Assembly: GCA_024694365.1 (NCBI GenBank)
Contig: JAILJX010000008.1
Span: 1 to 64,000 of the forward strand
Length of the DNA stretch: 64,000 nucleotides
DNA from: Kiritimatiellia bacterium
GTDB taxonomy: Bacteria; Verrucomicrobiota; Kiritimatiellia; RFP12; UBA1067
Direction: 5' to 3'
Part shown: positions 23,553 to 61,067 of the stretch, piece by piece
How the letters are laid out: each line of letters starts with the position of its first letter
How positions within the stretch are numbered: position 1 is the stretch's first letter
The notes under the pieces: model-generated
What the model saw: the letters and a program-made list of their open reading frames with translations, nothing else
Told to the model about the DNA's origin: nothing
Databases searched by the model: none
Made by a program: the position numbers and the translations under genes

Positions 23553-23562
23553 CCCGAACGGG
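23553..23562. promoter_or_regulatory. CCC-N4-GGG element upstream of the GH2 gene
   Basis: CCCGAACGGG is a perfect 10-bp palindrome followed by TAG. Its centre is 34 bp upstream of the -10 centre. The same geometry recurs before three other genes (49417, 54448, 56544), so I infer a shared activator site. Confidence 0.6.
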
Positions 23563-23585: not shown

Positions 23586-23594
23586 TGATACAAT
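23586..23594 (+). promoter_or_regulatory. Extended -10 promoter, leaderless start
   Basis: TGA-TACAAT ends at 23594, so +1 is expected at 23601, the A of the GH2 start codon. No Shine-Dalgarno sequence is present and no good -35 is seen. Confidence 0.7.
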
Positions 23595-23600
23595 ATCGGC

Positions 23601-26600
23601 ATGAAAGTCAAACTTCTGCTTTTTTCGGCAATCGCCGCTGCGTTTTGCCATGTCCGGGCCGAGACCTTTTCGCTCGATGACGGTTGGATGTTCGCGAAGT
23701 CTCCGGAGACGATCCCTCTCGCACGGGCGAAAGCGGCTCTCGAGACCGGCGGTGCGAAAGTGGAGGATGTTTCTTTCGACGACTCGAAATGGGAAAAAGT
23801 CTCCGTCCCCCATGCGATAAACGCCCATGATTCCTTCGACGGCCGCGCGGTCGATGCCGGCGAGAGCTCGTTCTGGCGCGGGATGGCCTTCTACCGCAAG
23901 CGCTTTTCGCTCGCCTGCGCGCCCGAGAAAGCCTTCATATCGTTCGAGACGGTACGCCAGAGCGTATATCTCTGGGTGAACGGCTCTTTCGCAGGATACT
24001 ATGAAGCGGGAATCGCGCCGGTAGCCTTCGATGTGACGAAGCATCTTCAAGCCGGCGAAAACCTCCTGTGCGTCGCGACCGACAACTGCGCTGCGAGGGG
24101 AACGAAGACATTCACCCGTGAGACGGTCCCGGGCCGCGATCCGGGCGACATGAGCGGCAGCCCCTATCAGTGGAACACGACCGACTTCAACGAGGTGCAG
24201 GGCGGGCTCACTGGCCATGTGAAACTCCATCTGAAGAAGAAAGTCTACCTTACCCTCCCCTGCTACAACAATCTCAAGACTGTCGGACAGTACGTAAGCG
24301 CATCCGGTTTCGACTTCAAGCGAGGCCGGGCCAGGATAACCGTCGAGGCGGAGACAAGGAACGAATCCGGCGCGGCGGTCGGCGTGACGGTTGGCGTGAC
24401 GGTGAAAGATGCGTCCGGAAAGGCGCTCCGTCCGTCCGGGGAAGTCCGCACGCATCTTGCCCCCGCCTCCGATGCGGGCGCAGCATTCCTTACGGCGCTC
24501 GAGCCGGACGTTTATTCGGACAATCCCGAGCCCACGGGCGTAAAGGAGCCTGAAACGGAGAAAACCACCGTTTCGTTCGAAGCGGAAGGGCTTATCTTCT
24601 GGTCGCCCGACACCCCCAAGCTCTACGACGTGACGATAACGCTCATGGGGAAAGGAGGCGAAGTTCTCGATGAAGAGACCGTGAGGACGGGCTTTCGCGA
24701 AGTGAAGTATGACGCCGGCAAGGGCGGACTTGTCCTGAACGGCGAGGCGATATGGCTTACGGGCTACGCACAAAGATCGACCGACGAATGGGCCGCGATA
24801 GGCGTGGCCCCCGATTGGCTGCAGGCATTCGACGCGACGTTGATCCGCAAGTCCAACGCGAACTTTATCCGTTGGATGCACGTCGCCCCCAAGCCCGCGC
24901 CTGTCAGGGCGTACGACGCCAACGGAATCGTCAACGTGTGCCCTGCGGGGGACAAGGAGGGGGATGTCGCGGGACGCCAATGGGCGCAGAGGGTCGAGGC
25001 GATGCGCGATGCCATCATCTATTTCAGGAACTCCCCGTCGATTTTCTTCTGGGAGGCGGGCAACAACCAGATATCCCCCGCCCATATGAAGGAGATGCGG
25101 GAGATGAAGGAGAGGCTCGATCCGGGAAACGGACGTTTCATGGGCTGCCGCACGCTTCAGACCCCGGAGCAGATACGCGAATGCGAGTATGTCGGCACCA
25201 TGCTGCATCGCCATGAAATGCCGGCTTTCCATTCCATGGAGAAGCTCAAAGCGTTCAAGCCCATCATGGAGACGGAGTATGCGCGCCAGGAGTCGCCGCG
25301 CAGGGTGTGGGACGACTATACCCCTCCGCACTACGACTATGTCTGCAGATTCCTCGCCGGCGGGAAAAAAGAGACAGGGTTCGACGTCTACGACCAGACC
25401 CAGGAAGACTTCGCCCTCTCTACCGCGAAAGAATACGCCGCATTCTGGTCCAGCCGGGCGAATGGCGAGGCTGAGAGGACGTATTCCTCTTGCGCGGCCC
25501 TTTGCTGGACAGACTCCAACCAGCACGGGAGGCAAAGCGGGTCCGAAAATTGCCGCTCTTCCGGACGCGTGGACGCCGTGCGCATCCCGAAAATGAACTA
25601 CTTCACCTACAGGGCCATGCAGAGCGGAACGCCCGCAGTGAAGATCGTCGGGCATTGGAACTATCCGAAACTGACGAAAGACAGCTACAGATACGAAGAA
25701 AAAACCTTCAACGGAAAGTGGATGGAGCCCACGGGAAAGATTCTGCAGCGAGATCCCGCGAAGAAGACCGTGTATGTCATCGGTTCGCCTCATGTCGCCA
25801 AGGTGGAGCTTTACGTAAACGGGAAATTGAAGGGAACATGCGACAAGCCGGAAAATCTCTTCATCTGGACTTTCCCCGAGGTCGATGTCACGGAATCGGG
25901 GCGTGTCGAGGCGATGGCCTACGGAAAAGACGGGGAAAGAATCGCATCCGACGCGATCGAGACCGCCGGCGAGGCCGCAGGGCTGGAAATGAAACTTTAT
26001 TCCGACCCGCAAAGGGGCTGGCGTGCAAACGGAGCAGACATAGCGGTTGCGGATCTGAAACTCGTCGACGCCAAGGGCCGCATGCTTCCGCTCGCCTCGA
26101 ACCGCGTGACTTTCACAGTCGAAGGCCCCGCCGTCTTCATGGGCGGCTACAACAGCGGAGTCTGGGACGAGGCTTCGCCGATCGGCAAGGACTGGATCGA
26201 TCTCGAATGCGGAGAAAATCGCGTGTTCCTGAGGGCCGGCCGGAATCCGGGGAAAGTCGTGCTGAAGGCGGCCTGCGACAACGGGATGACGGCCCGGGCG
26301 GAGCTGGCCCTCGCGAAGGCCGATACGGAAGGGGGGCTCGCCAAAGATCCGCTCCTTCCGCAGATGTATGTGGATTGGAGCGCAAAGAAGACCGCTCCCG
26401 TGGTGCAGTCTTCGCTCGCGGCTTCCAATGGGGCCTTGCCTTGGGAAGTGCGGGTGAACGGAACGCCGGTCAGGTTCCCGGGGAATCTCGGTTCTCCTTT
26501 CAGGCCTGACGGCAATACGGGCGTATGCTGCGCGTTCGAGCCGGTCTTGGAGGCCTTGGTGAGGGCCGGAGCGAAATTGGAATATACCATCGAGCACAAG

Positions 26601-26891
26601 AAGATACCGAGAAACAAGAAGTGGCTCAGGCGCATCGCGCCCACCCCGTATCTGCCGATGGTGACGGTGAAGGCCGGAGGACATGAAATCGATGCCTGCA
26701 CAGGCTTCACGGAACTTTTCATCGACAACGGCAGAGATAAGGATCTCACCAATTGTGAAGTGTGGAACGCCGCCAAAAAGAAAGCGCCAGGGGTCGTCTG
26801 CGGCGAGCTTTCCGCGTTGGTCGGATACATCCCCGGCGTTGAGATCAAGGTGGACGATAAGAGCCGTTTTATCGAGTTGACCGTGAAATAA
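23601..26891 (+). CDS. GH2-family glycoside hydrolase, large exported
   Basis: This 1096-residue protein has a signal peptide ending VRA and then the GH2 order. A jelly-roll sugar-binding domain (about 25-215, with FDDSKWEKVSVPH and FRKR-type strands) is followed by an Ig-like domain (about 215-375), a TIM barrel (about 375-600) and further beta domains to the end. The barrel carries YFRNSPSIFFWEAGNNQ where GH2 enzymes normally have W-x-x-G-N-E, so the usual acid/base Glu is Asn here and E485 two residues earlier may substitute. METEYA is the likely nucleophile region. The substrate is probably a beta-galactoside or glucuronide in a complex glycan. It is expressed from a leaderless promoter with a CCC-N4-GGG element. 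Confidence 0.85.
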   Translation: MKVKLLLFSAIAAAFCHVRAETFSLDDGWMFAKSPETIPLARAKAALETGGAKVEDVSFDDSKWEKVSVPHAINAHDSFDGRAVDAGESSFWRGMAFYRKRFSLACAPEKAFISFETVRQSVYLWVNGSFAGYYEAGIAPVAFDVTKHLQAGENLLCVATDNCAARGTKTFTRETVPGRDPGDMSGSPYQWNTTDFNEVQGGLTGHVKLHLKKKVYLTLPCYNNLKTVGQYVSASGFDFKRGRARITVEAETRNESGAAVGVTVGVTVKDASGKALRPSGEVRTHLAPASDAGAAFLTALEPDVYSDNPEPTGVKEPETEKTTVSFEAEGLIFWSPDTPKLYDVTITLMGKGGEVLDEETVRTGFREVKYDAGKGGLVLNGEAIWLTGYAQRSTDEWAAIGVAPDWLQAFDATLIRKSNANFIRWMHVAPKPAPVRAYDANGIVNVCPAGDKEGDVAGRQWAQRVEAMRDAIIYFRNSPSIFFWEAGNNQISPAHMKEMREMKERLDPGNGRFMGCRTLQTPEQIRECEYVGTMLHRHEMPAFHSMEKLKAFKPIMETEYARQESPRRVWDDYTPPHYDYVCRFLAGGKKETGFDVYDQTQEDFALSTAKEYAAFWSSRANGEAERTYSSCAALCWTDSNQHGRQSGSENCRSSGRVDAVRIPKMNYFTYRAMQSGTPAVKIVGHWNYPKLTKDSYRYEEKTFNGKWMEPTGKILQRDPAKKTVYVIGSPHVAKVELYVNGKLKGTCDKPENLFIWTFPEVDVTESGRVEAMAYGKDGERIASDAIETAGEAAGLEMKLYSDPQRGWRANGADIAVADLKLVDAKGRMLPLASNRVTFTVEGPAVFMGGYNSGVWDEASPIGKDWIDLECGENRVFLRAGRNPGKVVLKAACDNGMTARAELALAKADTEGGLAKDPLLPQMYVDWSAKKTAPVVQSSLAASNGALPWEVRVNGTPVRFPGNLGSPFRPDGNTGVCCAFEPVLEALVRAGAKLEYTIEHKKIPRNKKWLRRIAPTPYLPMVTVKAGGHEIDACTGFTELFIDNGRDKDLTNCEVWNAAKKKAPGVVCGELSALVGYIPGVEIKVDDKSRFIELTVK

Positions 26892-49365: not shown

Positions 49366-49378
49366 CCCCCTTTTGGGG
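49366..49378. promoter_or_regulatory. CCC-N4-GGG element upstream of the GH43 operon
   Basis: CCCCC-TTTT-GGGG starts directly after the nrdG stop. The core CCCTTTTGGG (49368-49377) is centred 35 bp upstream of the -10 centre. It could also act as a small hairpin ending nrdG, but the matching position before three other genes argues for an operator. Confidence 0.6.
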
Positions 49379-49401
49379 TATGTGACGGGAGCCGCGGATT
49401 T

Positions 49402-49410
49402 TGGTATAAT
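49402..49410 (+). promoter_or_regulatory. Extended -10 promoter, leaderless start
   Basis: TGG-TATAAT ends at 49410, so +1 is 49417, the A of the GH43 start codon. The -35 region reads GTGACG and is poor, consistent with activator dependence. Confidence 0.75.
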
Positions 49411-49416
49411 TGGCTC

Positions 49417-51915
49417 ATGAAGAACTTGAACACAATGTCCGCGGCGCTCGTCGCAGTTCTTTTCGCCGGCGAAGCGTCCGCCGCGATGGACGGCACCAAT
49501 CCGATCGTTAAAGACCGCTTCACGCCCGATCCGGCGGCAGTGGCGGACGGCGACTGGCTCTACGTCTTCACGGGCCATGACGATCCGCATGCGCGCGGAT
49601 ACAAGATGAAGGACTGGCAAGTCTTCGGGACGACCAACATGACGGATTGGGTCGATTTCGGAGCCGTCATGGACACTTCCGTCTTCAAGTGGGCGCGCCA
49701 GGGCGACAGGGCCTGGGCGTCGCAGGCGATAAAGCGCGGCGGAAAGTGGTACTGGTATGTCGCAGTGCAGCAGGCGGGGGGAGGGGATGCGATAGGCGTC
49801 GCCACGGCGGACGACATCAAGGGCCCCTGGACCGACGCCGCAGGAAAGCCGATGTGCACGGGCAGGGGGTTCATAGACCCTTCCGTCATGATCGACGATG
49901 ACGGCAAGGCGTGGCTCTTCTGGGGCAACTGCGGAGGAGATCCGGGCTGCTGGTACGGAGAGCTCAAGGACAACATGTTCGAGTTCGCCGACGGATACAG
50001 GCCGGTGCCAGGGCTTATGGACGAAAAGGCTTTCGGCAAGCCGATCAAAAAGGCGCGCGGCGCGGGGGCCTACAAGAAGATAGACAGCAATTTCGAGGAG
50101 GCGCCCTGGATCTACAAGGCGGGCGACACGTACTATCTCGAATACGCGGCGGGGGGAGTTCCGGAATACTGGGCGTATTCGACGGCGAAGTCGATACACG
50201 GTCCGTGGACATACGGCGGAAGAATCATGGACGAGGCCGAGAACACGGGGACGATCCACGGCGGAAGCGTGTTCTTCAAGGGCGAGTGGTACATGGTCTA
50301 CCACAACGCCATTCTCCCGGATGGAGCCGACTGCAGGAGGAGCTTCTGCATCGAGCGCTACGAGAGGAATGAAGACGGCTCCATCCCCTTCATCCACCAG
50401 ACGAAGGGGGGAGTCTCGAAAGCCGGAACTCTCGAGCCGACTCTCTGGGCCGACGTCCCCGACATCTCAATGTGCAGGAAGGGGAACAAATACTACATGG
50501 TTTCGACCACGATGCATTTCAATCCCGGAATGCCGGTAATGGTCTCGGAGGACCTTGCCGACTGGAAGATAGCGAGCTACTGCTACCCGACGATAGAGAA
50601 CCGTCCGAAGGACAGGCTGGAGAACGGGGAGAACGACTATCTTTTCGGAACGTGGGCGGCGTCGATAAGGTATTCGGAAGAGGATGACAGGTTATACGTG
50701 ACAGGCTTCAACAACAAGGTGGACTCCACCTACTTCTTCACCTGCAAGGATCCGGAGAAGGGCGATTGGGCGTTCCGCAGGCTCAGCCCGAAGCAGTACG
50801 ACGAGTCGCTCTGGGTAGAGAACGGGAGATTCTGGGTCTACGCGACAGTCCCCGGGAAGCCATACAAAGTCCGCCTAACCGAGATGAACAAGGATTTTTC
50901 GGGCTTTGTCGACGGCGGCAAGATAGTCTTGGGCAATGTTACCGACGTCTTCGGGGCGCGCGGAGGCTTGGGCGAGGGCACTCAGGTTTTCAAGCGCGGG
51001 GATTGGTACTACCTCGTCAACATCTGCTGGCCCAAACCCAAGTGCAGGACCGTGGTGGTGCACCGCTCCAAGAACATGGACGGCCCCTGGGAAGGGAAGG
51101 TCGTCTATCAGCACGAAGGCATCGCCCAGGGGTCGTTCATGGAGTCGGCCGAAGGAAAGTGGTTCGCATACCTCTTCGGAGACCGCGGAGCCGTTGGCCG
51201 CTGCCCTTATATGCTCCCCGTCGAATGGGAGGACGGCTGGCCGGTCGTTTCGAAAGTCAACATTCCGCGCAAGGCGGGGATTCCGGCGATAGTCGAGTCG
51301 GATGAATTCACGGGCGATGGGCTCAAGAGCGTCTGGCAGTGGAACCACAACCCTGCGGACGGGCTGTGGTCGCTCTCGTCGCGTCCGGGATGGCTCGTCC
51401 TTTCCACCGGCCGCACCGACGCGGATCTCTCCACGGCGCGCAACACCTTGACGCAGCGCACGTGGGGTCCCGCCTGCCGCGCAGTGACGAAGGTCGACGT
51501 GTCGTCCATGAAAGACGGCGACAAGGCGGGCCTCGCGCTTTTCCAGCGGGATTACGCTTCGCTGTCGGCGGTGAAGGAGGGCGAGAACTTCGCCGTCGTC
51601 CTGGAGGCGGCGAAAAAAGGCAAGGCCGCCGAACTCGCCAGGGCGCGCCTTCCCAAGGGCGTGCGCGAGGTGTGGCTGAAAGCGACTGGAGACTTCTCGC
51701 GTCTTCCCGGGGAGAGCTTCAAGGAGAATCCTCCGGGGGCTGACGAAGGGCGTTTCTTCTGGTCTGAAGACGGGAACGTGTGGCATCCTGTCGGCAGAAG
51801 CGTGAAACTCGTCTACACGATCCCGCATTTCACCGGATACCGCTTTGCGCTTTTCAACTACTCGACGAAGAATCCCGGCGGACACGCCGACTTCGATTTT
51901 CTGAGGCTTGACTGA
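49417..51915 (+). CDS. Exported tandem GH43 glycosidase with C-terminal beta-sandwich
   Basis: This 832-residue protein has a signal peptide ending ASA and two consecutive five-bladed GH43 propellers. The first (about 28-325) has RFTPDPAAVADGDWLYVFTGHDD, GFIDPSVMIDDDGKAWLFWG and FEEAPWIYKAG (catalytic Glu). The second (about 335-625) starts TLWADVPDISMCRKGNKYYMVSTT in the style of GH43 xylosidase/arabinofuranosidases. A C-terminal concanavalin-like GH43 accessory domain (about 630-832) follows. Two complete GH43 domains in one chain suggest attack on arabinoxylan- or arabinan-type side chains. The gene heads the operon that also encodes the two-component system. Confidence 0.87.
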   Translation: MKNLNTMSAALVAVLFAGEASAAMDGTNPIVKDRFTPDPAAVADGDWLYVFTGHDDPHARGYKMKDWQVFGTTNMTDWVDFGAVMDTSVFKWARQGDRAWASQAIKRGGKWYWYVAVQQAGGGDAIGVATADDIKGPWTDAAGKPMCTGRGFIDPSVMIDDDGKAWLFWGNCGGDPGCWYGELKDNMFEFADGYRPVPGLMDEKAFGKPIKKARGAGAYKKIDSNFEEAPWIYKAGDTYYLEYAAGGVPEYWAYSTAKSIHGPWTYGGRIMDEAENTGTIHGGSVFFKGEWYMVYHNAILPDGADCRRSFCIERYERNEDGSIPFIHQTKGGVSKAGTLEPTLWADVPDISMCRKGNKYYMVSTTMHFNPGMPVMVSEDLADWKIASYCYPTIENRPKDRLENGENDYLFGTWAASIRYSEEDDRLYVTGFNNKVDSTYFFTCKDPEKGDWAFRRLSPKQYDESLWVENGRFWVYATVPGKPYKVRLTEMNKDFSGFVDGGKIVLGNVTDVFGARGGLGEGTQVFKRGDWYYLVNICWPKPKCRTVVVHRSKNMDGPWEGKVVYQHEGIAQGSFMESAEGKWFAYLFGDRGAVGRCPYMLPVEWEDGWPVVSKVNIPRKAGIPAIVESDEFTGDGLKSVWQWNHNPADGLWSLSSRPGWLVLSTGRTDADLSTARNTLTQRTWGPACRAVTKVDVSSMKDGDKAGLALFQRDYASLSAVKEGENFAVVLEAAKKGKAAELARARLPKGVREVWLKATGDFSRLPGESFKENPPGADEGRFFWSEDGNVWHPVGRSVKLVYTIPHFTGYRFALFNYSTKNPGGHADFDFLRLD

Positions 51916-51933
51916 CTCCATGGAGGGGAGACG

Positions 51934-52536
51934 ATGCGCCAGGTAGTGATAGTCGACGATCATCCGATGGTGCGCGACGGAATCGCCGCGCTCCTTACGA
52001 GTTCGAGAAAATTCACTGTGGCGGCGACGCTCGGCGGAGGGGACGGGCTTATGGAGTTCTGCGCGCGGAACGGCTGCCCTGACGCTATCCTCATGGACAT
52101 CCGCATGCCCGGCAAGGACGGCTTCGCGGTCCTTTCGGAGCTGCTTGGCGCATATCCCGGAGCGCGCGTCCTGTTTCTCGCCGGCATGCCTCTCAGGGAG
52201 GAGGAGGCGCGCGCCAGGCGCGAAGGCGCAAAGGGGTATCTCCCGAAAAGCGTCAACCATCTGCGGCTCATCGAGGCGCTGGAGACGGTCATTGCCGACG
52301 ATTCCGCCTTCATACATGAAGCGTTCGTCCCTGCGCCCAGCGAACTTTCGGACCGCGAGATGGACGTTCTGCGCTATCTCGCCCTAGGCAAGGCCCGCGA
52401 GGAGATCGCGGTGATCCTCGGCATATCGTCCGAGACGGTGAAAGTGCACGTGAAGAAAATCCGCGAGAAGCTCGACTGCGCCAACGCCGCAGGAGCCGTA
52501 TCCCGCGCGTACGAACTGGGGATTCTCCGTCCGTGA
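51934..52536 (+). CDS. NarL/LuxR-type response regulator of the polysaccharide block
   Basis: This 200-residue regulator has an N-terminal receiver (VVIVDDHPMVRDG, phospho-acceptor Asp in LMDIRMPGKDG, Lys in YLPKS). A C-terminal GerE/LuxR helix-turn-helix follows (LSDREMDVLRYLALGKAREEIAVILGISSETVKVHV). Such regulators bind inverted repeats as dimers. It is preceded by GGAGGGG, lies 18 bases after GH43 and overlaps the kinase gene. It is the natural candidate to bind the CCC-N4-GGG elements at 23553, 49368, 54400 and 56474, but this is inference. Confidence 0.92.
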   Translation: MRQVVIVDDHPMVRDGIAALLTSSRKFTVAATLGGGDGLMEFCARNGCPDAILMDIRMPGKDGFAVLSELLGAYPGARVLFLAGMPLREEEARARREGAKGYLPKSVNHLRLIEALETVIADDSAFIHEAFVPAPSELSDREMDVLRYLALGKAREEIAVILGISSETVKVHVKKIREKLDCANAAGAVSRAYELGILRP

Positions 52537-54416
52537 CGCCAAGCCGCGCGATTTCCGGCCTTGCGCTCGCTGCCCTCGCGTTTTCGGTGCCGGCGGCGCT
52601 TTCGGCGAAGACGGTTCCCGAAAGGGGGCTGCTGCGCCTCGCTGCAGGCGAGACGCTGGACGACTCGTCGCGCATCTCCCGCGACGCCGCGATCGAGGTC
52701 GATCTGGGCGGCACGCCGGTCGGGCGCGGAATGCTGGTGGACCTCGTGCGCGTGCGCAATCTTTCCCTGGCCGACGGCGAAAAGCCCACCGACGCCATCT
52801 TCCTCTCCGGACCGGTCTCGGTCGATGCGGACATATTCTACGACCCCTCGGCGGGGGTTGTCAGGGCGAGGATACTGGGCGTCCATGAAGGCGTTCCGAT
52901 GAAAGTCACGGTCTGGGGCGCAGGCGGGGCGCAGGGGAAGGAGCCGAGGCAGTTCTGGGACCACGAAGGCGACGGAACGTGGTCTCAAGGCGTACCCGGT
53001 CTCTACGACACGGCTCTCTTTTTCGGCGACGCCTTCGCGCTTGGATGGGAAGGCTCGGGCGAGAACAGGGTCCCTCCGTTCGGCACGCTCGCGCTCAGGA
53101 ATTCGCGCCTCCTTTTCCGCAGCGGCGCCGGATGGCCGTATCTTTCGCCTCGGAGGATCGCAGGCACGGGCGTGCTCGCCCTTTCAGGCAGCGGACTGCA
53201 GACGGTCAAGGACCATCCCTGCACCTCCCGGTCGGGCGTTTCGGTGGACGTCGCGTATTTCAGCGCCGGGCAGGACTCTTGGCTCTGGGGAAAGGAAGCG
53301 CCGATAAGAATCGACGGACCCGTCGTCATGACGAACGGGTTCTTCAGGATCTACCGCGACGTAACGTTCAACGGCGGCATCACCGCCGATTCCCCGTACG
53401 GGCCCGGAATGATCGAGCGCGATGCGCAGTGCGTCATCAACGGAACGTTCACGGTAGGGTCGCCTTTCATCATCTCATCTGGGAACAGGATCAACGGGAC
53501 TGTGATAATGTCCGGCGGCAAGCTCACGCTGGGCAAGGGCGTCGCCGTTCCGCGAATCGAGCCCCCGCCTGGAGGATCCTTCGAAATACGGCGCGTGAAC
53601 GACGATACGGTTATAACGCCCGTCTTCTGGACGACGGCGCGCATATCCTTTCTCGTCGCCGGCTTCATCTCCGCCATCGCCGCTCTTATGGGGCTTGCGT
53701 TCTTCTTCGGCGTGAAGGTCCGCCGGCGTTCGCGCGAACTCGAGGCTTCAAGGCGCGAACGGGATCTCGAACGGGCGGCCTACGATGCGGTGCGCAGGGA
53801 GAGGCTGCGGCTTTCGATGGATCTGCACGACGACTTCCAGCAGCTTCTCACGAGCGCGCGCTTCCGTCTTGTCGCAGGGGAGAATTTCGTGGCGGAAGGC
53901 GCCGGCGCCGCGGGATGCGAACAGCTCAGGGCTGCGCGCGCCGCCCTAGACAGCGCCCAGTCCGGACTGAGGGCCACGCTGTGGACGCTGAGCGAGGAGA
54001 GCGAAGGCCCGGGTTCGCTTCTGGACGTTTTCCGCCACGCGATTTCGCGCATGGCCCATTGGCAGGGCGTCGTCGAGCTCGAGCAGGAGGGCGAAGAGCC
54101 GGAGCTCGCGCGCAGGCTCGTGGGGAGGCTTTTGATGATCCTGCAGGAGGCGGTGGGCAACGCGATAGAGCATGGCGACGCGACGAAGGTCCGCGTGAAG
54201 GTGTCTTTCGGGAAGGGCTGGCTCGAGATGACGGTCGCGGACAACGGCGACGGCTTCGATCCTTCTGCCGTCGGTGAGGCACGCGGACACTTCGGCATAC
54301 GCAACATGGCCATGAGAGCCAAAGCCGGCGGGGGGACGTTCTCCATAGATTCAGCCCCGGGACGCGGCGCGGTTCTGAAAGTCTCTTTTCCGGCAGACCC
54401 CCATTTGGGTAAGTGA
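52533..54416 (+). CDS. HisKA_3 sensor kinase with large beta-solenoid-like sensor domain
   Basis: This 627-residue kinase starts at GTG 52533, overlapping the regulator stop. It has a cleavable-looking signal peptide (to LSA) and then about 340 extracytoplasmic residues. Repeated short strands and turns there (SGPVSVDADIFYD, IDGPVVMTNGFFRIYRDVTF, NGTFTVGSPFIISSGNRI, NGTVIMSGGKLTLGKG) resemble autotransporter-type beta-helix repeats. One membrane helix lies at about 369-392. HisKA_3 follows with phospho-acceptor His432 in LHDDFQQLL, then a HATPase_c domain with DNGDGFDP. The sensor fold is unlike CHASE, PAS or Y_Y_Y sensors and suggests direct binding of a polysaccharide or surface polymer. 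Confidence 0.88.
   Translation: MTPSRAISGLALAALAFSVPAALSAKTVPERGLLRLAAGETLDDSSRISRDAAIEVDLGGTPVGRGMLVDLVRVRNLSLADGEKPTDAIFLSGPVSVDADIFYDPSAGVVRARILGVHEGVPMKVTVWGAGGAQGKEPRQFWDHEGDGTWSQGVPGLYDTALFFGDAFALGWEGSGENRVPPFGTLALRNSRLLFRSGAGWPYLSPRRIAGTGVLALSGSGLQTVKDHPCTSRSGVSVDVAYFSAGQDSWLWGKEAPIRIDGPVVMTNGFFRIYRDVTFNGGITADSPYGPGMIERDAQCVINGTFTVGSPFIISSGNRINGTVIMSGGKLTLGKGVAVPRIEPPPGGSFEIRRVNDDTVITPVFWTTARISFLVAGFISAIAALMGLAFFFGVKVRRRSRELEASRRERDLERAAYDAVRRERLRLSMDLHDDFQQLLTSARFRLVAGENFVAEGAGAAGCEQLRAARAALDSAQSGLRATLWTLSEESEGPGSLLDVFRHAISRMAHWQGVVELEQEGEEPELARRLVGRLLMILQEAVGNAIEHGDATKVRVKVSFGKGWLEMTVADNGDGFDPSAVGEARGHFGIRNMAMRAKAGGGTFSIDSAPGRGAVLKVSFPADPHLGK
54398..54409. promoter_or_regulatory. CCC-N4-GGG element upstream of the GH51 gene
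   Basis: CCCCC-ATTT-GGG lies within the last codons of the kinase gene. The core CCCATTTGGG (54400-54409) is centred 34 bp upstream of the -10 centre and is followed by TAAGTGA, similar to TATGTGA after the GH43 element. Confidence 0.6.
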
Positions 54417-54432
54417 TTCCGTCCGCCGGTTT

Positions 54433-54441
54433 TGCTATAAT
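54433..54441 (+). promoter_or_regulatory. Extended -10 promoter, leaderless start
   Basis: TGC-TATAAT ends at 54441, so +1 is 54448, the A of the GH51 start codon. The -35 region (GTGATT) is poor. Confidence 0.7.
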
Positions 54442-54447
54442 GGGGGC

Positions 54448-56394
54448 ATGAAAACAAAACTCCTCGTCTTTGCGGCGCTTGCCGCATCTCTCGCCGGAGC
54501 TACCGACACAAAGGTCGCTCTCGACTGGTCTGCGCCACGGAACAAGGTTGCCCCTGGCATGTGGGGAATCTTTTTCGAGGACATCAACTGGGCTGCCGAC
54601 GGTGGCCTGAGCCCCGAGCTTCTGGCAAACGGCGGCTTCAACTGGCAACCGCGCGATCATGAGAAATGGACGAAAACGCAGGAAGGCTGGGAAGGGGATT
54701 TCCGTGATGGCGGAATGGCGAGGCTTTCGTTTCAGATGGGAAAGCCCGTCCATCCCAACACGGCGCGGCATTTGAGGATCGAATCCTTCGGTAAGGGGCT
54801 CGCGGGCGTAAAGAACACGGGCCTGGACGGCTTCAAGCTCGTCAAGGGCGAGACTTACCGCATCATCTACGACTTCCGCGAGCTCACCGAGAAGAAGGAC
54901 GGAATCGACTGGGTGCTCCCAAATTGGACTCGCGTCATAACCGAATTCGTCTTCAACGGCGAGCCGATTCTCTTCGCTGAGGACGGAATGCGCGTCGAAG
55001 TGACCGAAACGAGCTTCAGTCTCCTCGTCCGCGGGCGCAGGATTTTCGAGTTTGACAATGTCAGCCTCGAGCCTACGGGCCCCAATCTGGTCCGCGCCGG
55101 CCTCAGGAAGGACCTCGTCGACCGCCTCGCCGACCTGAAGCCTGCGTTCGTCAGGTTCCCCGGCGGATGCATCGTGGAGGAAGGCGACTTCCAGCACTGG
55201 TACGACTGGCGCAGAACGGTCGGCCCGAAAGAGCGCCGCGAATGCGTATGGAACCGCTGGGGCAGGGACGACAAGCCATACTGGGAGACGTTCCGCGTCG
55301 GCTTCTACGAATATTTCGTCCTCTGCGAGGAAATCGGCGCTGAGCCGCTGCCGATCTGCCTCGCAGGCCTCACATGCCAGTTTCAGCGTCCGCCCCAGCT
55401 CGTCGCCGTGGAGGATGCGGACTACTTCGCCAACGTGATTCTCGAGCTCATAGAGTTCGCCAACGGAGACGTGACGACGACCTGGGGCAAGGTTCGCGCC
55501 GACATGGGCCACCCCAAGCCCTTCAACATGAAGATGGTCGGAATCGGCAACGAGAACTGGGACGCCGAGTTCTTCGACCGCGCCGAGCCGATTGCCAGGA
55601 TCGTCCGCAAGAAGCATCCCGAGATCATGATCGTAGGCTCCTCCGGCCCCGCGCCCGAGGACAAGCGCTGGAAATACGCATGGGGACGCGTCACCAAGGA
55701 GACCGCCGACATCGTCGACGAGCACTACTACATGTCTCCCGAGTGGTTCCTGGACAACTTCCGCCGCTACGACAACTACGACAGGAAGAAGCTCCCGGTA
55801 TACGCCGGAGAATACGCCTGCCACCACAAGATCAAGGACGCGAAGGGACACGAGACAAAGCCCAACTCGCTTTGGAGCGCCGTTTGCGAGGCGGTCGTGA
55901 TGTGCGGATTCGAGCGCAACGCCGATATTGTGCAGATGGCGAGCTACGCGCCTCTCTTCGCGCGCTGGGGACATGACCAGTGGACGCCCGACATGATTTG
56001 GTTCGACACTGAAAAGAGCTGGCTCACGCCCAACTACTACGTGCAGCAGCTGTTCTTCACGAACCGTCCGGACTACACCGTTCCCTGCAAGGTCGACAAT
56101 CGCGAAAAGACGGTGTTCGAGTCTGCGGGGGTGGACGCGAAGGCGAACGAAATCGTCGTCAAGCTCGTGAATGTCGGCGAGTCTCCCCGCAGGGTAACCG
56201 TCGATTTCGGCAAGAATCTCCCGAATGGCGAGGCGAAGATGGTCTCGCTTGCGGGCGAGCGTCTTGCGGTCAATACGCGCGAGGCGCCTGAAACTGTCGC
56301 GCCGAAGATGTCGGCGATTCCCTTTGCTGGCGGCAAGATGCTCGTCGTGGAACTTCCCGCGAATTCCGTGAATGTCGTCAGAGTCGCGATGTAA
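54448..56394 (+). CDS. GH51-type alpha-L-arabinofuranosidase, exported
   Basis: This 648-residue protein has a signal peptide (cleavage near LAGA). A beta-sandwich and barrel carry PGMWGIFFEDINWAADGGL, FVRFPGGCIVEEG and the acid/base MVGIGNENW (E369). The nucleophile lies in VYAGEYACHH (E455), and a C-terminal beta domain follows. These blocks are diagnostic of GH51. It removes alpha-L-arabinofuranosyl units, complementing the tandem GH43 upstream. It has its own promoter and CCC-N4-GGG element. Confidence 0.92.
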   Translation: MKTKLLVFAALAASLAGATDTKVALDWSAPRNKVAPGMWGIFFEDINWAADGGLSPELLANGGFNWQPRDHEKWTKTQEGWEGDFRDGGMARLSFQMGKPVHPNTARHLRIESFGKGLAGVKNTGLDGFKLVKGETYRIIYDFRELTEKKDGIDWVLPNWTRVITEFVFNGEPILFAEDGMRVEVTETSFSLLVRGRRIFEFDNVSLEPTGPNLVRAGLRKDLVDRLADLKPAFVRFPGGCIVEEGDFQHWYDWRRTVGPKERRECVWNRWGRDDKPYWETFRVGFYEYFVLCEEIGAEPLPICLAGLTCQFQRPPQLVAVEDADYFANVILELIEFANGDVTTTWGKVRADMGHPKPFNMKMVGIGNENWDAEFFDRAEPIARIVRKKHPEIMIVGSSGPAPEDKRWKYAWGRVTKETADIVDEHYYMSPEWFLDNFRRYDNYDRKKLPVYAGEYACHHKIKDAKGHETKPNSLWSAVCEAVVMCGFERNADIVQMASYAPLFARWGHDQWTPDMIWFDTEKSWLTPNYYVQQLFFTNRPDYTVPCKVDNREKTVFESAGVDAKANEIVVKLVNVGESPRRVTVDFGKNLPNGEAKMVSLAGERLAVNTREAPETVAPKMSAIPFAGGKMLVVELPANSVNVVRVAM

Positions 56395-56434
56395 CAGCCG
56401 GTTTTGACGGGTTACCAAACCTGTTTTTCCTAAA

Positions 56435-56471
56435 GTCGCAGGGCTTGCAGTTGGTGTGCAAGTTCTGCGAC
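56435..56471. other. 15-bp stem-loop after the GH51 gene
   Basis: GTCGCAGGGCTTGCA and TGCAAGTTCTGCGAC pair along 15 positions (two G-T wobbles at the DNA-to-RNA level) around a 7-base loop, GTTGGTG. No T-run follows, so it is not a classic terminator. Transcript-end protection or a protein-binding cruciform is possible. It ends three bases before the CCC-N4-GGG element. Confidence 0.7.
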
Positions 56472-56473
56472 TA

Positions 56474-56484
56474 CCCTTTTGGGG
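56474..56484. promoter_or_regulatory. CCC-N4-GGG element upstream of the large surface-protein gene
   Basis: CCCTTTTGGG (56474-56483) plus one further G is centred 34 bp upstream of the -10 centre, as in the three glycosidase promoters. Confidence 0.6.
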
Positions 56485-56506
56485 AGTTTCAGGGGTGATG
56501 CAAAAA

Positions 56507-56515
56507 TGGTAAAAT
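56507..56515 (+). promoter_or_regulatory. Extended -10 promoter
   Basis: TGG-TAAAAT predicts transcription from about 56522 and a 22-base leader with AGGAGG before ATG 56544. Unlike GH43 and GH51 this gene therefore has a conventional leader. Confidence 0.65.
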
Positions 56516-56543: not shown

Positions 56544-59500
56544 ATGACGACACGTGTAAAGGCATTTTCAGGCGCGCTCGCGCTCGCCCTCATCCCGTTC
56601 ATTTCCGCAAAGGCGGATGCCACCTACTACTGGACAGGCGGCGGCGATGACACCAACTTTGATACGACAGCGAACTGGGGTTCCGATACGGGAACGGCAT
56701 ATCCTGTCGCGGGTGATGGTGCCACATTCCAGACAGGAGCCGCAGACAAAACGGTTACATTCAATGGCTCATATGCCCCTTCTTGGGTTTGGGTGGCGAC
56801 AGGAGATACGGAGAGTCCTGTCACTTGGGCTGCGACGGATTCTGCCAACGGTATGACATCGGCCGGGAATATCACGATTGCCGACTCTGCCGATCAGGTT
56901 GGTGCGCTTAAGATTACCTCCGGTACATATGTTGCAACGGGAGAGTTCCTGCTCGGCTATGGTTCAGGAGCTCTCACGATGGAAGGCGGCTCACTTTCTT
57001 CCACAGGCGCGGCGACTTGGGGATGGGCGGCCGATTCCACAACGTCCGTGCAGCTTAACGGTGGCACACTCTCCATAAACGGCGCGTACGCCAATGATGC
57101 GGGCAACATCGCTCTCAATGCTCTAGCTGGTGCGGGCGGCAAGCTCTACATAGGCGTAAACAACGCGACATTCCAGCTTCCGGCGGGTGATGCTATACTT
57201 GGTGCATACGGCGCATGGGCTGCAGATTACACCGATTCCATTGTCACGGGCTATGTTACGGTTGATGTTGCCAACGGCGGCTCGTTCATCTGCGGTAGCG
57301 ACACCGATCCCCACAAAATACTTCTTGGCCAGTATGGTTCCGAACCTATGACCGTGAATCTCAACGCTGGCGGCACGCTTGGCGCCGGGCGCATTACAAG
57401 AGGGGCGGCGAACGGAACCTCAGCGGTCAATTTCAACGGCGGGACTCTTGAGGTCATCGGCGACTACAATGACGGAACGGCCTTTTTGCCTGACAGCGGT
57501 ATCGTTTATACGGTCGGCACTCAGGGCGGCACGCTCGATACGAACGGCAAGTCAATTACCATAGATGCTACCATTGCAGGTGAAGGCACGCTTGACATTG
57601 TCGGCGGAGGCTCTGTGACATTCTCTGTCGCGCCGACTTGTTCCGTTACATCGTCAGACAATACGACGTATGAGATTCCTACGACCGGGACCTATTATTG
57701 GGTCGGCGGCGCGGTCGGCGACAATCCGCGTGTTGCGTTTAGCGCAACTGCCGGGAAATGGAGTGCGACAAAAGGCGGTGAGGCCATTGCCGATTTTGTT
57801 CCTGGCGAAGGTGACACTGCAGTTTTCGCGACGACTGACGGCGCTGTCTACCTTTATCCAGATAATGTTGCGGCGGATGTCAAAGCGGAAGACGAAGCGC
57901 AGGTAGTGTTTTTCGTCTACAATTCCGCGGACAATATTACGATGACAAGTGATATTGACATTGCAAGTGGAGCGACTGTAACATTGCGTGCTATCCGCAA
58001 CACGATTTCTTTCGCCGGCAAACTTACAGGTTCCGGTACATTGATTGCAAACTCAACGGCTATGAATACATGGGTCCGCCTCATTGGTGACACGTCTAGC
58101 TTTGAGGGTTTGGTTGAATTTGTAGCCACCGGCCATTCCTATGGCGTATGCAGAATCGCCGATGCGGCAGCAGCCGGTAATGCGCTTTCCGCATGGAACA
58201 TATACACAACGCATGATAGTATCATTCCTTACAGAACTGACAAAACCATCGGTTATACAGCGTTCGATCTCGGAAACGGCAAGACATATACTTTCGGTTC
58301 TCTTAACGCGGCTGTAGCTCCGTATGGCTCCTATTTTACCGGTTGTACATTCAATATCGGCGGGCGCGATACAGAGGACAGTTCGTTCTATGGACAATTC
58401 CAGGGCTCGGGCAATGCGATCACTTGGTCTGCGCCCACTACCTTCACCTACGGCGTCACCAATGCTGCTTCTTTCACCGTCACTGGCGGAGGTACGGTGA
58501 AATTCGTCGACTCCGGCGCACTTCCGACCGCCTTTACTGTGAGTGGAACTGGAGCGTACATCGGCATGACGACAGATTCCGATGTTAATGCTGCGGGTGT
58601 GGCCGCGATTACTTCCATAGCAAGCGGTGCGACGATCGGCTTTGACGCTGACGATACCGAAAATGAGTGCGCAGTCAACATTTCAAGCGCATCAATCCTT
58701 GAAGGGCAGACTCTCGTCAAGAAGGGCGCAGGCGTTCTCTATATGTCGGGGATTACGTATACTAATGACATAGTCGTAAATGAAGGAGCTCTCGTCCTGG
58801 CGCATGGCTCAGTCGTGGGTGATGTTACTGTTGCCTCGGGTGCTTCGCTTCTTGTCGATCTCTCGGGTGCAGCCGACGCAGAGGAAGTGTTCACCTACAC
58901 CTCCATTTCCGGCGATGGCACAGTAAGCTACCGCAACAAGTCAGACCGCGCTACCGTCACCACCGATGTAAGTCCGTGGGTGCTCACGATGTCCGGTGAG
59001 GCGATCACCTATACATGGTCCGGCCTTGGCAACGACAACGATTGGTCGAATGTCGCCAACTGGTATGCAGACGGCACTGATGCAACCGAGTTGCCTACGG
59101 CAGGCGATACGGTCAATATCGACCGTGAGGGAGTTGTGATTCTCAGCGCACCCGAAGAGATTACCGCGAATGTCGTTGTGAAAAGCGGATACACGCTGAC
59201 TATTTCGTCCGGCTTTGTATTCTCGTCTCTTACGGTTGAGGATGGCGGTTATATCGCGTTCAATGGCGCAATCGCAGCAGTGGGAGATTCAATGACTCTT
59301 ACCGCAACGGTTGCCGATTTTACTGCGAGCAATTTCGCCAACGCGAGTAATGGAAACTACGAGGTCTCTCTCTCGGAAGGCGTTCTCACTGCCACTCGCA
59401 TCGCTGCGACCTATACCTGGACAGGTGCTGCCGACACGAATTGGGCCACTTCCGGCAACTGGACAGTTGGTGAAACAGCGGTTGCGGAAGTTCCGGAGAC

Positions 59501-61067
59501 TGCCGACAGCGTGATCTTCCCCGCTTCTGACGCCGAGGACTTCACGGGATGGAGCGTTGCTCTCGCGGCGGACGTTTCCGTGCAGGGCGTTGCGGTTAAC
59601 GGCAATGTGGCATTGAGCGGAGGAAAGACAATAAGGACGCTTGCCATTTCCGGCTCTGCTGAGCTTCATCTCAACACCGCCAATATCGGCACTCTCGGCG
59701 CGGCGCTCACAGTCTCTTGCCCGGTGAATATTCTTGCCGGTTCGACGGACTACATCTATCTTGCAGGCTACAATGCGCAGCTTGACGGAGCGCTTATCGG
59801 CAGCGGAACGCTTATCTCCGATGCTAACGGGGTGCAGAATATTGGCGTTACATTCAACGGTGATGTGAGCGAGTTCGCCGGTAAGTTCCAGTCAACCAAA
59901 TACAACAATCGCGACCATACGAATTTTGGAAGCGGTGTGTATGGCTCTACCAACGCTGTTTGGGAAATCAGCCCCAGTGACAGCAAAGACTATAATTCGT
60001 ATGTCATCAACAGCAGCGATGCGACTTATATGTTCGGTGCTCTTATTGGCGACTGTTGGGCAGGCAATTATTACGGAAAAGTTCAGATAGGTGGTAGGGA
60101 TGACGTGGACAGCTCTGTCACGCTCCACTCCCATACGACAAGTCAGGGCGATCCCAGAGCCTATACCATCACAAAGATTGGCAACTCCACTTTGACGATC
60201 AACAATGCGTATAATTCGGAGAAACTTGCTACGCTTTACTTGAACGGCGGAACGGCTGTTCTGGGATGCTATCCTACTTCGACTCTTACGTTCGGCGGCG
60301 GTATTGTCAAAACGCCCGCCTACACGACAACAGTCGATGATGTTGAGACTACGGTCTATCCTGACATCTCCGGCAAAATCACCGATTCGACCGGGCCTAT
60401 CGCTTTCACGAATGATGAGGGCGAAGAGCATGTGTGGGCGACGGAGCTTGCGGCTTCAAACAAGGGTGGACTCTCCAAGTATGGTGACGGCACCCTTACT
60501 CTCTCGGCTGCCCCTCTGTATTTCGGCCTTACGTCGGTTATGGGCGGCACGCTTGTCGTTCCGGAGGATGATAAGGACTGCTTTACCGAAATTTATCATG
60601 ACGACATCGCCGGCAAGTATGTCATCAAGCATCCCGTCAACGCGCTCAGTACAGGCAATCTCATCCACTATTCGTCAGATGCATCCGTGACCAACTATTG
60701 CGACATCGGTCTTTACGCCTATCCGGCCGGAACGACGCTTTACGGAACGGAGGAGGCGGACGACTATCTCACAGCCGATCTCGATTTCTCAGGAGTTGCG
60801 ACTGTCGACGTCTCGGCGAAGGACCTCTATGACGAGGAGAACAACAAGTTCAACAATGTCGTCCTCGCGCGTACGACCGGCGCAATAACAGGAATCGGCA
60901 AGGTCGGCGATGGCCTCACCCTCACCGTCCCCGATTGCCCCGATGGCGTCTCTGCGCAGAAGTGGCAATGGACCGTCCGCACGACAGTCGAAACGGTTGG
61001 CGACGTGACATATCACTGTGTCACTGTCACGCCCAAGATTCTGCCGTTCGTGATAAGCATACAGTAA
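56544..61067 (+). CDS. Very large exported surface protein with repeated beta modules
   Basis: This 1507-residue protein has a signal peptide ending AKADA. At least four module starts of the form Y-x-W-x-G...W are visible: TYYWTGGGDDTNFDTTANWG near residue 27, TYYWVGGAVGDNP near 383, TYTWSGLGNDNDWSNVANW near 822 and TYTWTGAADTNWATSGNW near 954. Between them lie long Gly/Ser/Thr-rich beta-strand repeats of the autotransporter-associated type. There is no autotransporter barrel and no PEP-CTERM or LPXTG tail, so the export and anchoring route is unclear. It may be a cell-surface adhesin or polysaccharide-binding scaffold. G+C is lower than in neighbouring genes. It shares the CCC-N4-GGG element with the glycosidases. 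Confidence 0.88.
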   Translation: MTTRVKAFSGALALALIPFISAKADATYYWTGGGDDTNFDTTANWGSDTGTAYPVAGDGATFQTGAADKTVTFNGSYAPSWVWVATGDTESPVTWAATDSANGMTSAGNITIADSADQVGALKITSGTYVATGEFLLGYGSGALTMEGGSLSSTGAATWGWAADSTTSVQLNGGTLSINGAYANDAGNIALNALAGAGGKLYIGVNNATFQLPAGDAILGAYGAWAADYTDSIVTGYVTVDVANGGSFICGSDTDPHKILLGQYGSEPMTVNLNAGGTLGAGRITRGAANGTSAVNFNGGTLEVIGDYNDGTAFLPDSGIVYTVGTQGGTLDTNGKSITIDATIAGEGTLDIVGGGSVTFSVAPTCSVTSSDNTTYEIPTTGTYYWVGGAVGDNPRVAFSATAGKWSATKGGEAIADFVPGEGDTAVFATTDGAVYLYPDNVAADVKAEDEAQVVFFVYNSADNITMTSDIDIASGATVTLRAIRNTISFAGKLTGSGTLIANSTAMNTWVRLIGDTSSFEGLVEFVATGHSYGVCRIADAAAAGNALSAWNIYTTHDSIIPYRTDKTIGYTAFDLGNGKTYTFGSLNAAVAPYGSYFTGCTFNIGGRDTEDSSFYGQFQGSGNAITWSAPTTFTYGVTNAASFTVTGGGTVKFVDSGALPTAFTVSGTGAYIGMTTDSDVNAAGVAAITSIASGATIGFDADDTENECAVNISSASILEGQTLVKKGAGVLYMSGITYTNDIVVNEGALVLAHGSVVGDVTVASGASLLVDLSGAADAEEVFTYTSISGDGTVSYRNKSDRATVTTDVSPWVLTMSGEAITYTWSGLGNDNDWSNVANWYADGTDATELPTAGDTVNIDREGVVILSAPEEITANVVVKSGYTLTISSGFVFSSLTVEDGGYIAFNGAIAAVGDSMTLTATVADFTASNFANASNGNYEVSLSEGVLTATRIAATYTWTGAADTNWATSGNWTVGETAVAEVPETADSVIFPASDAEDFTGWSVALAADVSVQGVAVNGNVALSGGKTIRTLAISGSAELHLNTANIGTLGAALTVSCPVNILAGSTDYIYLAGYNAQLDGALIGSGTLISDANGVQNIGVTFNGDVSEFAGKFQSTKYNNRDHTNFGSGVYGSTNAVWEISPSDSKDYNSYVINSSDATYMFGALIGDCWAGNYYGKVQIGGRDDVDSSVTLHSHTTSQGDPRAYTITKIGNSTLTINNAYNSEKLATLYLNGGTAVLGCYPTSTLTFGGGIVKTPAYTTTVDDVETTVYPDISGKITDSTGPIAFTNDEGEEHVWATELAASNKGGLSKYGDGTLTLSAAPLYFGLTSVMGGTLVVPEDDKDCFTEIYHDDIAGKYVIKHPVNALSTGNLIHYSSDASVTNYCDIGLYAYPAGTTLYGTEEADDYLTADLDFSGVATVDVSAKDLYDEENNKFNNVVLARTTGAITGIGKVGDGLTLTVPDCPDGVSAQKWQWTVRTTVETVGDVTYHCVTVTPKILPFVISIQ

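Follow-up and report, generated by a model that had tools for sequence, protein, structure and literature searches.

The question raised by a 64,000-nt stretch of a Kiritimatiellia bacterium genome (GenBank assembly GCA_024694365.1, contig JAILJX010000008.1, positions 1 to 64,000; hereafter the window) is whether a CCC-N4-GGG inverted repeat shared by four of its promoters is the operator of a common regulon, and which regulator might bind it. Our analysis revealed this element, here called the box, in front of dozens of genes for fibre digestion, sugar use, and surface proteins, and it is most likely the binding site for a family of sensor-controlled activators, so that these genes would be switched on together. 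In particular, with a probability of roughly 0.6, we regard the box as the operator of a trans-acting polysaccharide regulon under a NarL-type response regulator activated by a HisKA_3 histidine kinase. The features concerned, including genes of glycoside hydrolase (GH) families, are the following:

23553..23562, + strand, CCC-N4-GGG box (CCCGAACGGG) of the GH2 promoter, gap of 26 to the -10
23589..23594, + strand, extended -10 (TGA-TACAAT) of the GH2 promoter, ATG six bases behind, leaderless
23601..26891, + strand, secreted GH2-family glycosidase, 1096 aa (Pfam)
49368..49377, + strand, box (CCCTTTTGGG, within CCCCCTTTTGGGG) of the GH43 promoter, gap of 27 to the -10
49405..49410, + strand, extended -10 (TGG-TATAAT) of the GH43 promoter, leaderless ATG at 49417
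49417..51915, + strand, secreted protein with GH43 and GH43_C2 domains, 832 aa (Pfam)
51934..52536, + strand, NarL/LuxR-type response regulator (Response_reg and GerE), candidate box binder (Pfam, structure search, sequence)
52533..54416, + strand, HisKA_3 sensor histidine kinase, H-box intact (Pfam, alignment, blastp)
54400..54409, + strand, box (CCCATTTGGG) of the GH51 promoter, gap of 26 to the -10
54436..54441, + strand, extended -10 (TGC-TATAAT) of the GH51 promoter, leaderless ATG at 54448
54448..56394, + strand, secreted GH51-type alpha-L-arabinofuranosidase, 648 aa (Pfam)
56474..56483, + strand, box (CCCTTTTGGG) of the surface-protein promoter, gap of 26 to the -10
56510..56515, + strand, extended -10 (TGG-TAAAAT) of the surface-protein promoter, leadered start at 56544 with a GGAGG ribosome site
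56544..61067, + strand, secreted PATR/autotransporter-repeat surface protein, 1507 residues (Pfam, blastp)

A preliminary description of the window had reported the four elements, and all of them were found at exactly these positions. A window-wide scan for a box at the right distance from a -10 resulted in only these four sites, in agreement with its statement that the other promoters it listed lack the element. The hexamers TACAAT, TATAAT, TATAAT, and TAAAAT (GH2, GH43, GH51, and surface protein, respectively) are each preceded by an upstream TGN, and the gaps of 26, 27, 26, and 26 bases between GGG and -10 bear out the fixed distance that had been claimed. In the GH2, GH43, and GH51 promoters, the ATG follows six bases after the -10, so that the messages are probably leaderless and the element is centred at -43.5 to -44.5, close to the -44 to -45 originally given, while the surface-protein gene has a short leader instead. 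Without the spacing condition, CCC-N4-GGG was counted 17 times in the window versus about 21 expected by shuffling; since the palindrome alone is not enriched, chance explains its presence in the window, but not its position.

The same spacing was then examined in the window's genome, a 2.46-Mb assembly of 129 contigs (85% complete), in which the reversed pattern served as control for all pattern counts. The pattern CCCN4GGG-N22..30-TANNAT resulted in 37 matches versus 5 in the control, and the gaps piled up at 25, 26, and 27 bases (8, 14, and 11 sites, respectively), with none at 22–24 and three at 28–30. A box was found before an extended -10 in 24 cases and in front of leaderless ATG starts in 14 cases, each versus 0 in the control. 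Allowing a free spacer of 1–10 bases before an extended -10 yielded 67 raw matches versus 2, which merged to 42 sites, c. 31 of them with a gap of 25–27 bases (23 N4, four N5, and one N6). The few N5 and N6 sites keep the GGG half 25–27 bases from the -10, and since some of them precede non-sugar genes, N4 is the trustworthy form; wider variants beside particular regulators (L165, L167, L240, L242, L249, and L251) are unproven. The matrix of the element displayed CCC-N4-GGG with a weak A/T preference in the spacer and weak T/G, A/G, A/G, T, and G after GGG, and alignment of the boxed sites revealed flanks and spacers unrelated to each other.

Leaderless promoters are common in this lineage and are marked by a fixed distance between -10 and ATG: TGNTANNAT-N6-ATG occurred 65 times in the window's genome versus once in the control (e.g., at 2944–2961, 23586–23603, and 49402–49419 of the window). 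They also allowed a comparison of boxed with un-boxed promoters. The -35 regions of the four promoters, described beforehand as poor, are indeed poor but not distinctive, as the mean best match was 3.20 of 6 for boxed and 3.04 for un-boxed leaderless promoters (P = 0.47); a poor -35 is thus a trait of the extended -10 promoters of this lineage and was rejected as a mark of the regulon. An alternative sigma factor was rejected as well because boxed and un-boxed promoters share one type of -10, the extended TGN-TATAAT, and so was a terminator, since no T-run follows the palindrome at the window sites.

Of about 30 non-duplicate sites (N4, gap 25–27) in this genome, 26 are followed by the start of a gene, and in 23 cases the gene has a function related to polysaccharides, sugar acids, sugars, or the cell surface, as the proposal of a polysaccharide regulon had implied. 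Among the enzymes were two GH2, three GH43, one GH51, GH28, and GH31 each, a GDSL esterase, and an SGNH-like esterase, and the surface-type products comprised a CotH/LTD protein and six large secreted proteins. For uronate use, we identified mannonate dehydratase (uxuA), a PfkB sugar kinase with glucuronate isomerase (uxaC) behind it, a hexuronate-like MFS transporter, and an enzyme of the mannitol dehydrogenase family, the closest models of which are fructuronate reductase and arabinitol dehydrogenase; for rhamnose use, RhaT followed by rhamnose isomerase (rhaT-rhaA), besides a boxed gene for a fucose-isomerase-like protein. The three exceptions were argJ, citrate synthase, and an AMP-binding enzyme. 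A GH115 gene lies behind an N5 box, and a gene for an alginate-lyase-domain protein behind a CCCCAAAATGGGG box. An equal frequency of the box before housekeeping promoters, named in advance as the outcome that would speak against a regulon, was not seen; un-boxed leaderless promoters precede mainly housekeeping genes, e.g., for GTP cyclohydrolase, DHDPS, formyltransferase, ParB, HIT, and TrkA proteins. The contrast in gene class (c. 20/22 boxed versus 6/41 un-boxed leaderless promoters, Fisher P of about 3e-9) rests on hand-made classes and approximate counts and is, if anything, understated, since one of the listed controls, a DUF4838/GH67N gene on C116, is preceded by a box promoter at a distance of about 330 bases. 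A crude signal-peptide rule picked out 18 of 23 boxed versus 20 of 55 un-boxed cases (P = 0.001).

The box also recurs in relatives. The pattern CCCN4GGG-N22..24-TGNTANNAT, sought in 61 genomes of the genus, resulted in 232 matches versus 2 in the control; boxes were present in 34 of the 61, ranging from 0 to 36 per genome. Two orthologous operons (L166/L239/L252 and L165/L250), which were picked for the regulator gene they contain, irrespective of the box, have kept the box in every genome seen. A scan of all species with exact TATAAT detected 49 stretches, in which records with several hits were mostly metagenome-assembled genomes of Kiritimatiellae/Verrucomicrobia, rumen genomes among them, and the scattered single matches are probably chance; the repeated hits suggest that the lineage belongs to Kiritimatiellae of the rumen or gut type. 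Lack of enrichment of the palindrome alone in the window and one boxed promoter in three near-identical copies (C9 and C110) might suggest that the shared element is itself a chance occurrence, or that it belongs to a promoter or terminator that was duplicated, and plays no role in regulation. However, the counts in the genus, the tight spacing, the unrelated flanks and spacers, and the specificity for gene classes make this extremely improbable, and a chance origin of the spaced element was rejected on the basis of the reversed-pattern controls together with the pile-up of spacings.

A candidate for the protein binding the box is encoded in the window itself, between the GH43 and GH51 boxes, where the gene of a NarL-type response regulator adjoins that of a HisKA_3 kinase; GH43, regulator, and kinase probably form one operon with GH43 as the first gene. 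The regulator (51934–52536) possesses a receiver domain (PF00072, 1.2e-18) and a GerE/LuxR helix-turn-helix (HTH) domain (PF00196, 1.6e-16), both intact in sequence. Its nearest solved structure is NarL (1a04, E 3e-20), and it scores far below the NarL family cut-offs. The kinase (52533–54416) carries PF07730 and PF02518 (HisKA_3 and HATPase_c), and an alignment of 11 kinases displayed an invariant H-box (DLHD..QQ.L) with differing sensor domains. Blastp (2e-12 and 3e-8) revealed homology between the sensor half of the window kinase and the repeat-rich surface proteins that belong to the regulon, as if this half had been made from a surface-protein domain. In the relative G066, a histidine kinase (L241:17502-19577) harbors a sensor consisting of GH43 and a BT_3657-like domain, and a response regulator of the same subfamily follows directly behind this kinase. 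Since the recognition helices are similar among the regulator paralogues (ETVKTHxK), several kinase-regulator pairs may share the box.

Copies of the regulator subfamily, counted at E <= 1e-38, ranged from 0 to 9 per genome and correlated with the number of boxes (Pearson 0.86, Spearman 0.57); within 20 GH43-rich genomes, Spearman correlation was 0.75 (P = 1e-4), compared to 0.07 for AraC. Within 7 kb of 26 subfamily regulators from five genomes, we counted 14 strict boxes versus 2.7 expected, a total inflated by the clustering of boxes, and eight of these regulators had at least one box within that distance versus 2.5 expected (P = 0.0025). Several boxed operons hold the pair themselves, namely GH43-regulator-kinase in the window, surface protein-kinase-regulator (L170), GH-regulator-kinase (L166, L239, and L252), lyase-like gene-kinase-regulator (L165 and L250), and two uronate-reductase-like genes followed by kinase and regulator (L240). 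Genome G053 has three boxes by the pattern used for the genus, all of them directly downstream of a kinase-regulator pair, the regulator of which is 34% identical; neither AraC nor LacI resulted in a hit in this genome. Thus, the box regulator is likely a NarL-type response regulator with its HisKA_3 kinase, a putative binder with moderate support; the assignment is new here, as no regulator had been named before.

Several observations weigh against this assignment. No strict box was found within 7 kb for 18 of the 26 subfamily regulators, and a few boxes can occur without a close subfamily member, as in G059 (5). GH43 content also follows box count (Spearman 0.70), and controlling for it by rank lowers the partial correlation of the regulator to 0.31 (P = 0.015; 61 genomes), compared to 0.55 with linear control, in genomes that are not phylogenetically independent. 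One conserved subfamily copy adjoins a pilin-like cluster also in box-free genomes (L169, L162, L174, and L253; its kinase is alongside in L169, L162, and L253), so that subfamily membership alone does not predict boxes and this copy is not their determinant. Moreover, the other regulator families compared were AraC, LacI, and Crp/Fnr, and an activator may not be needed, since the -35 regions of un-boxed promoters are equally poor.

Some of these points bear on a different reading, in which the box does serve this regulon as an activator site, but its binder is a single global regulator from a different family, e.g., of the GntR/IclR/DeoR uronate/pectin type, and the kinase-regulator pairs are merely co-located in the polysaccharide loci. 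In the window's genome, the majority of boxes have no regulator gene anywhere near them, the box count correlates with GH43 content alone as well, and uronate genes are classical targets of GntR/IclR regulators. We nevertheless consider this reading rather unlikely, as boxes cluster near kinase-regulator pairs, including those downstream of the pair in G053, and no transcription-factor gene was evident beside the boxed uxuA, uxuB-like, kdgK-uxaC, rhaT-rhaA, and exuT-like genes. AraC, LacI, and Crp/Fnr do not fit either. HTH_18 counts do not track boxes in the GH43-rich genomes, which speaks against AraC, and LacI was rejected with at most one sub-threshold match in each of the five box-richest genomes. 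Crp/Fnr was likewise dismissed, since cNMP_binding had no match in G000, with 24 boxes, or in G105, with 29; both rank among the three genomes richest in boxes, and both are incomplete assemblies.

Assuming that the NarL-type regulator is indeed the binder, the kinase would sense products of plant fibre with its periplasmic domain and phosphorylate the partner regulator, a dimer of which would bind the inverted repeat centred at -43.5 to -44.5 and recruit sigma-70 polymerase to the extended -10 promoter with its weak -35, giving mostly leaderless messages. The regulon would comprise secreted glycosidases, lyases, and esterases, repeat-rich surface proteins, and the uptake and catabolism of hexuronates and rhamnose, and a kinase-regulator pair behind a boxed promoter, as in several loci, would imply positive autoregulation. 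The constant spacing, the location of the box ahead of the core promoter, and the extended -10 all fit an activator contacting polymerase, as proposed in the preliminary description, though activation rather than repression can only be suggested from this geometry. Should the box be a repressor operator instead, the promoters would be blocked until fibre products appear. Many sugar regulons are under repression, and since un-boxed extended -10 promoters share the weak -35, boxed promoters might work unaided. But repressor sites usually overlap the -35, the -10, or the start and tolerate varied positions; a site placed ahead of the core promoter, at a constant 25–27 bases from the -10, is typical of activators touching sigma or alpha, which renders repression improbable here.

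An extension of the NarL-type reading, which we put forward tentatively, is a lineage-specific multi-input regulon, in which paralogous pairs with swapped kinase sensors (a repeat domain like that of the surface proteins, a short common domain of a different kind, or even a GH43 domain) and similar recognition helices would act on one common box. In this way, a whole set of scattered, mostly leaderless promoters would respond to many fibre signals, as opposed to one sensor per locus.

Among known systems, the promoter architecture resembles that of ComA promoters in Bacillus subtilis. ComA, a NarL-family regulator of the ComP-ComA system, uses an inverted repeat, the halves of which are 4 nt apart, in promoters that have a poor -35 and an extended -10, and its targets include the pectate lyase gene pel (PMC4797271). 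The same arrangement was found here, with an N4 spacer in 23 of the c. 31 free-spacer sites with gap 25–27 and an extended -10. In contrast, the ComA half-site is TTGCGG and not CCC/GGG, and its element TTGCGG/CCGCAA does not appear in our matrix, which contains only CCC, GGG, and weak flanks; the canonical ComA site is also located at a greater distance upstream, and an additional direct repeat accompanies it close to the -35, and ComA answers a quorum signal in a different phylum, while a fibre signal is proposed here. The NarX-NarL/NarQ-NarP systems of Escherichia coli share the kinase domain type, and NarL provides the nearest solved structure. NarL inverted repeats have a 2-bp spacer between heptamers, which unlike here results in a wider CCC-GGG distance, and the signal is nitrate. 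The NarL heptamer TACYYMT (PMC4886647) resembles TACCC/GGGTA in part of the boxes.

With regard to gene organization, a sensing kinase and a DNA-binding regulator beside polysaccharide genes, multiplied per genome, are reminiscent of hybrid two-component/SusR control of polysaccharide utilisation loci in Bacteroides, and the regulators probably control the neighbouring genes. Unlike there, kinase and regulator are separate, the local regulator being of NarL type and not an AraC-type hybrid, and one common box serves scattered genes with leaderless extended -10 promoters. Closer in phylogeny, Pontiella agarivorans (Kiritimatiellota) likewise has HisKA_3 kinase (PF07730) and response regulator genes near clusters of glycoside hydrolases and sulfatases (PMC10880615); we found no mention in that report of an operator, a regulon, or the architecture of promoters. 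Our literature search detected neither a report of a CCC-N4-GGG operator nor regulatory data for rumen and gut Kiritimatiellae. A recognisable operator would make the regulon readable directly from metagenome assemblies, as the box marks enzymes, transporters, and surface proteins acting together in the use of pectin, arabinoxylan, uronates, and rhamnose. Furthermore, it points to a role of the large repeat proteins in fibre digestion, connects leaderless promoters of the extended -10 type with a probable response-regulator box, and provides a candidate regulator that is now testable.

Some further observations were made on individual sites. The GH51 box lies inside the final codons of the kinase gene (54400–54416), so that operator and coding sequence overlap. 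The boxed promoter in three near-identical copies, which include the first codons, is located at C9:14829, C110:1650, and C110:3907 (L001, L009, and L010); a long GH2 reading frame follows only one of them, and the remaining two resemble copies that were truncated or repeats in the assembly. Another boxed promoter (L310:5598-5700, C83:20597) has no open reading frame behind it, but a terminator-like GC hairpin with a T-run within about 60 bases; the promoter may drive a small RNA, or the site may be due to chance. Large surface proteins (56544–61067 and L318) end in a short hydrophobic stretch (FVISIQ, GFLILLK, PIMIIVK, and GFAITVR), which is possibly a sorting signal.

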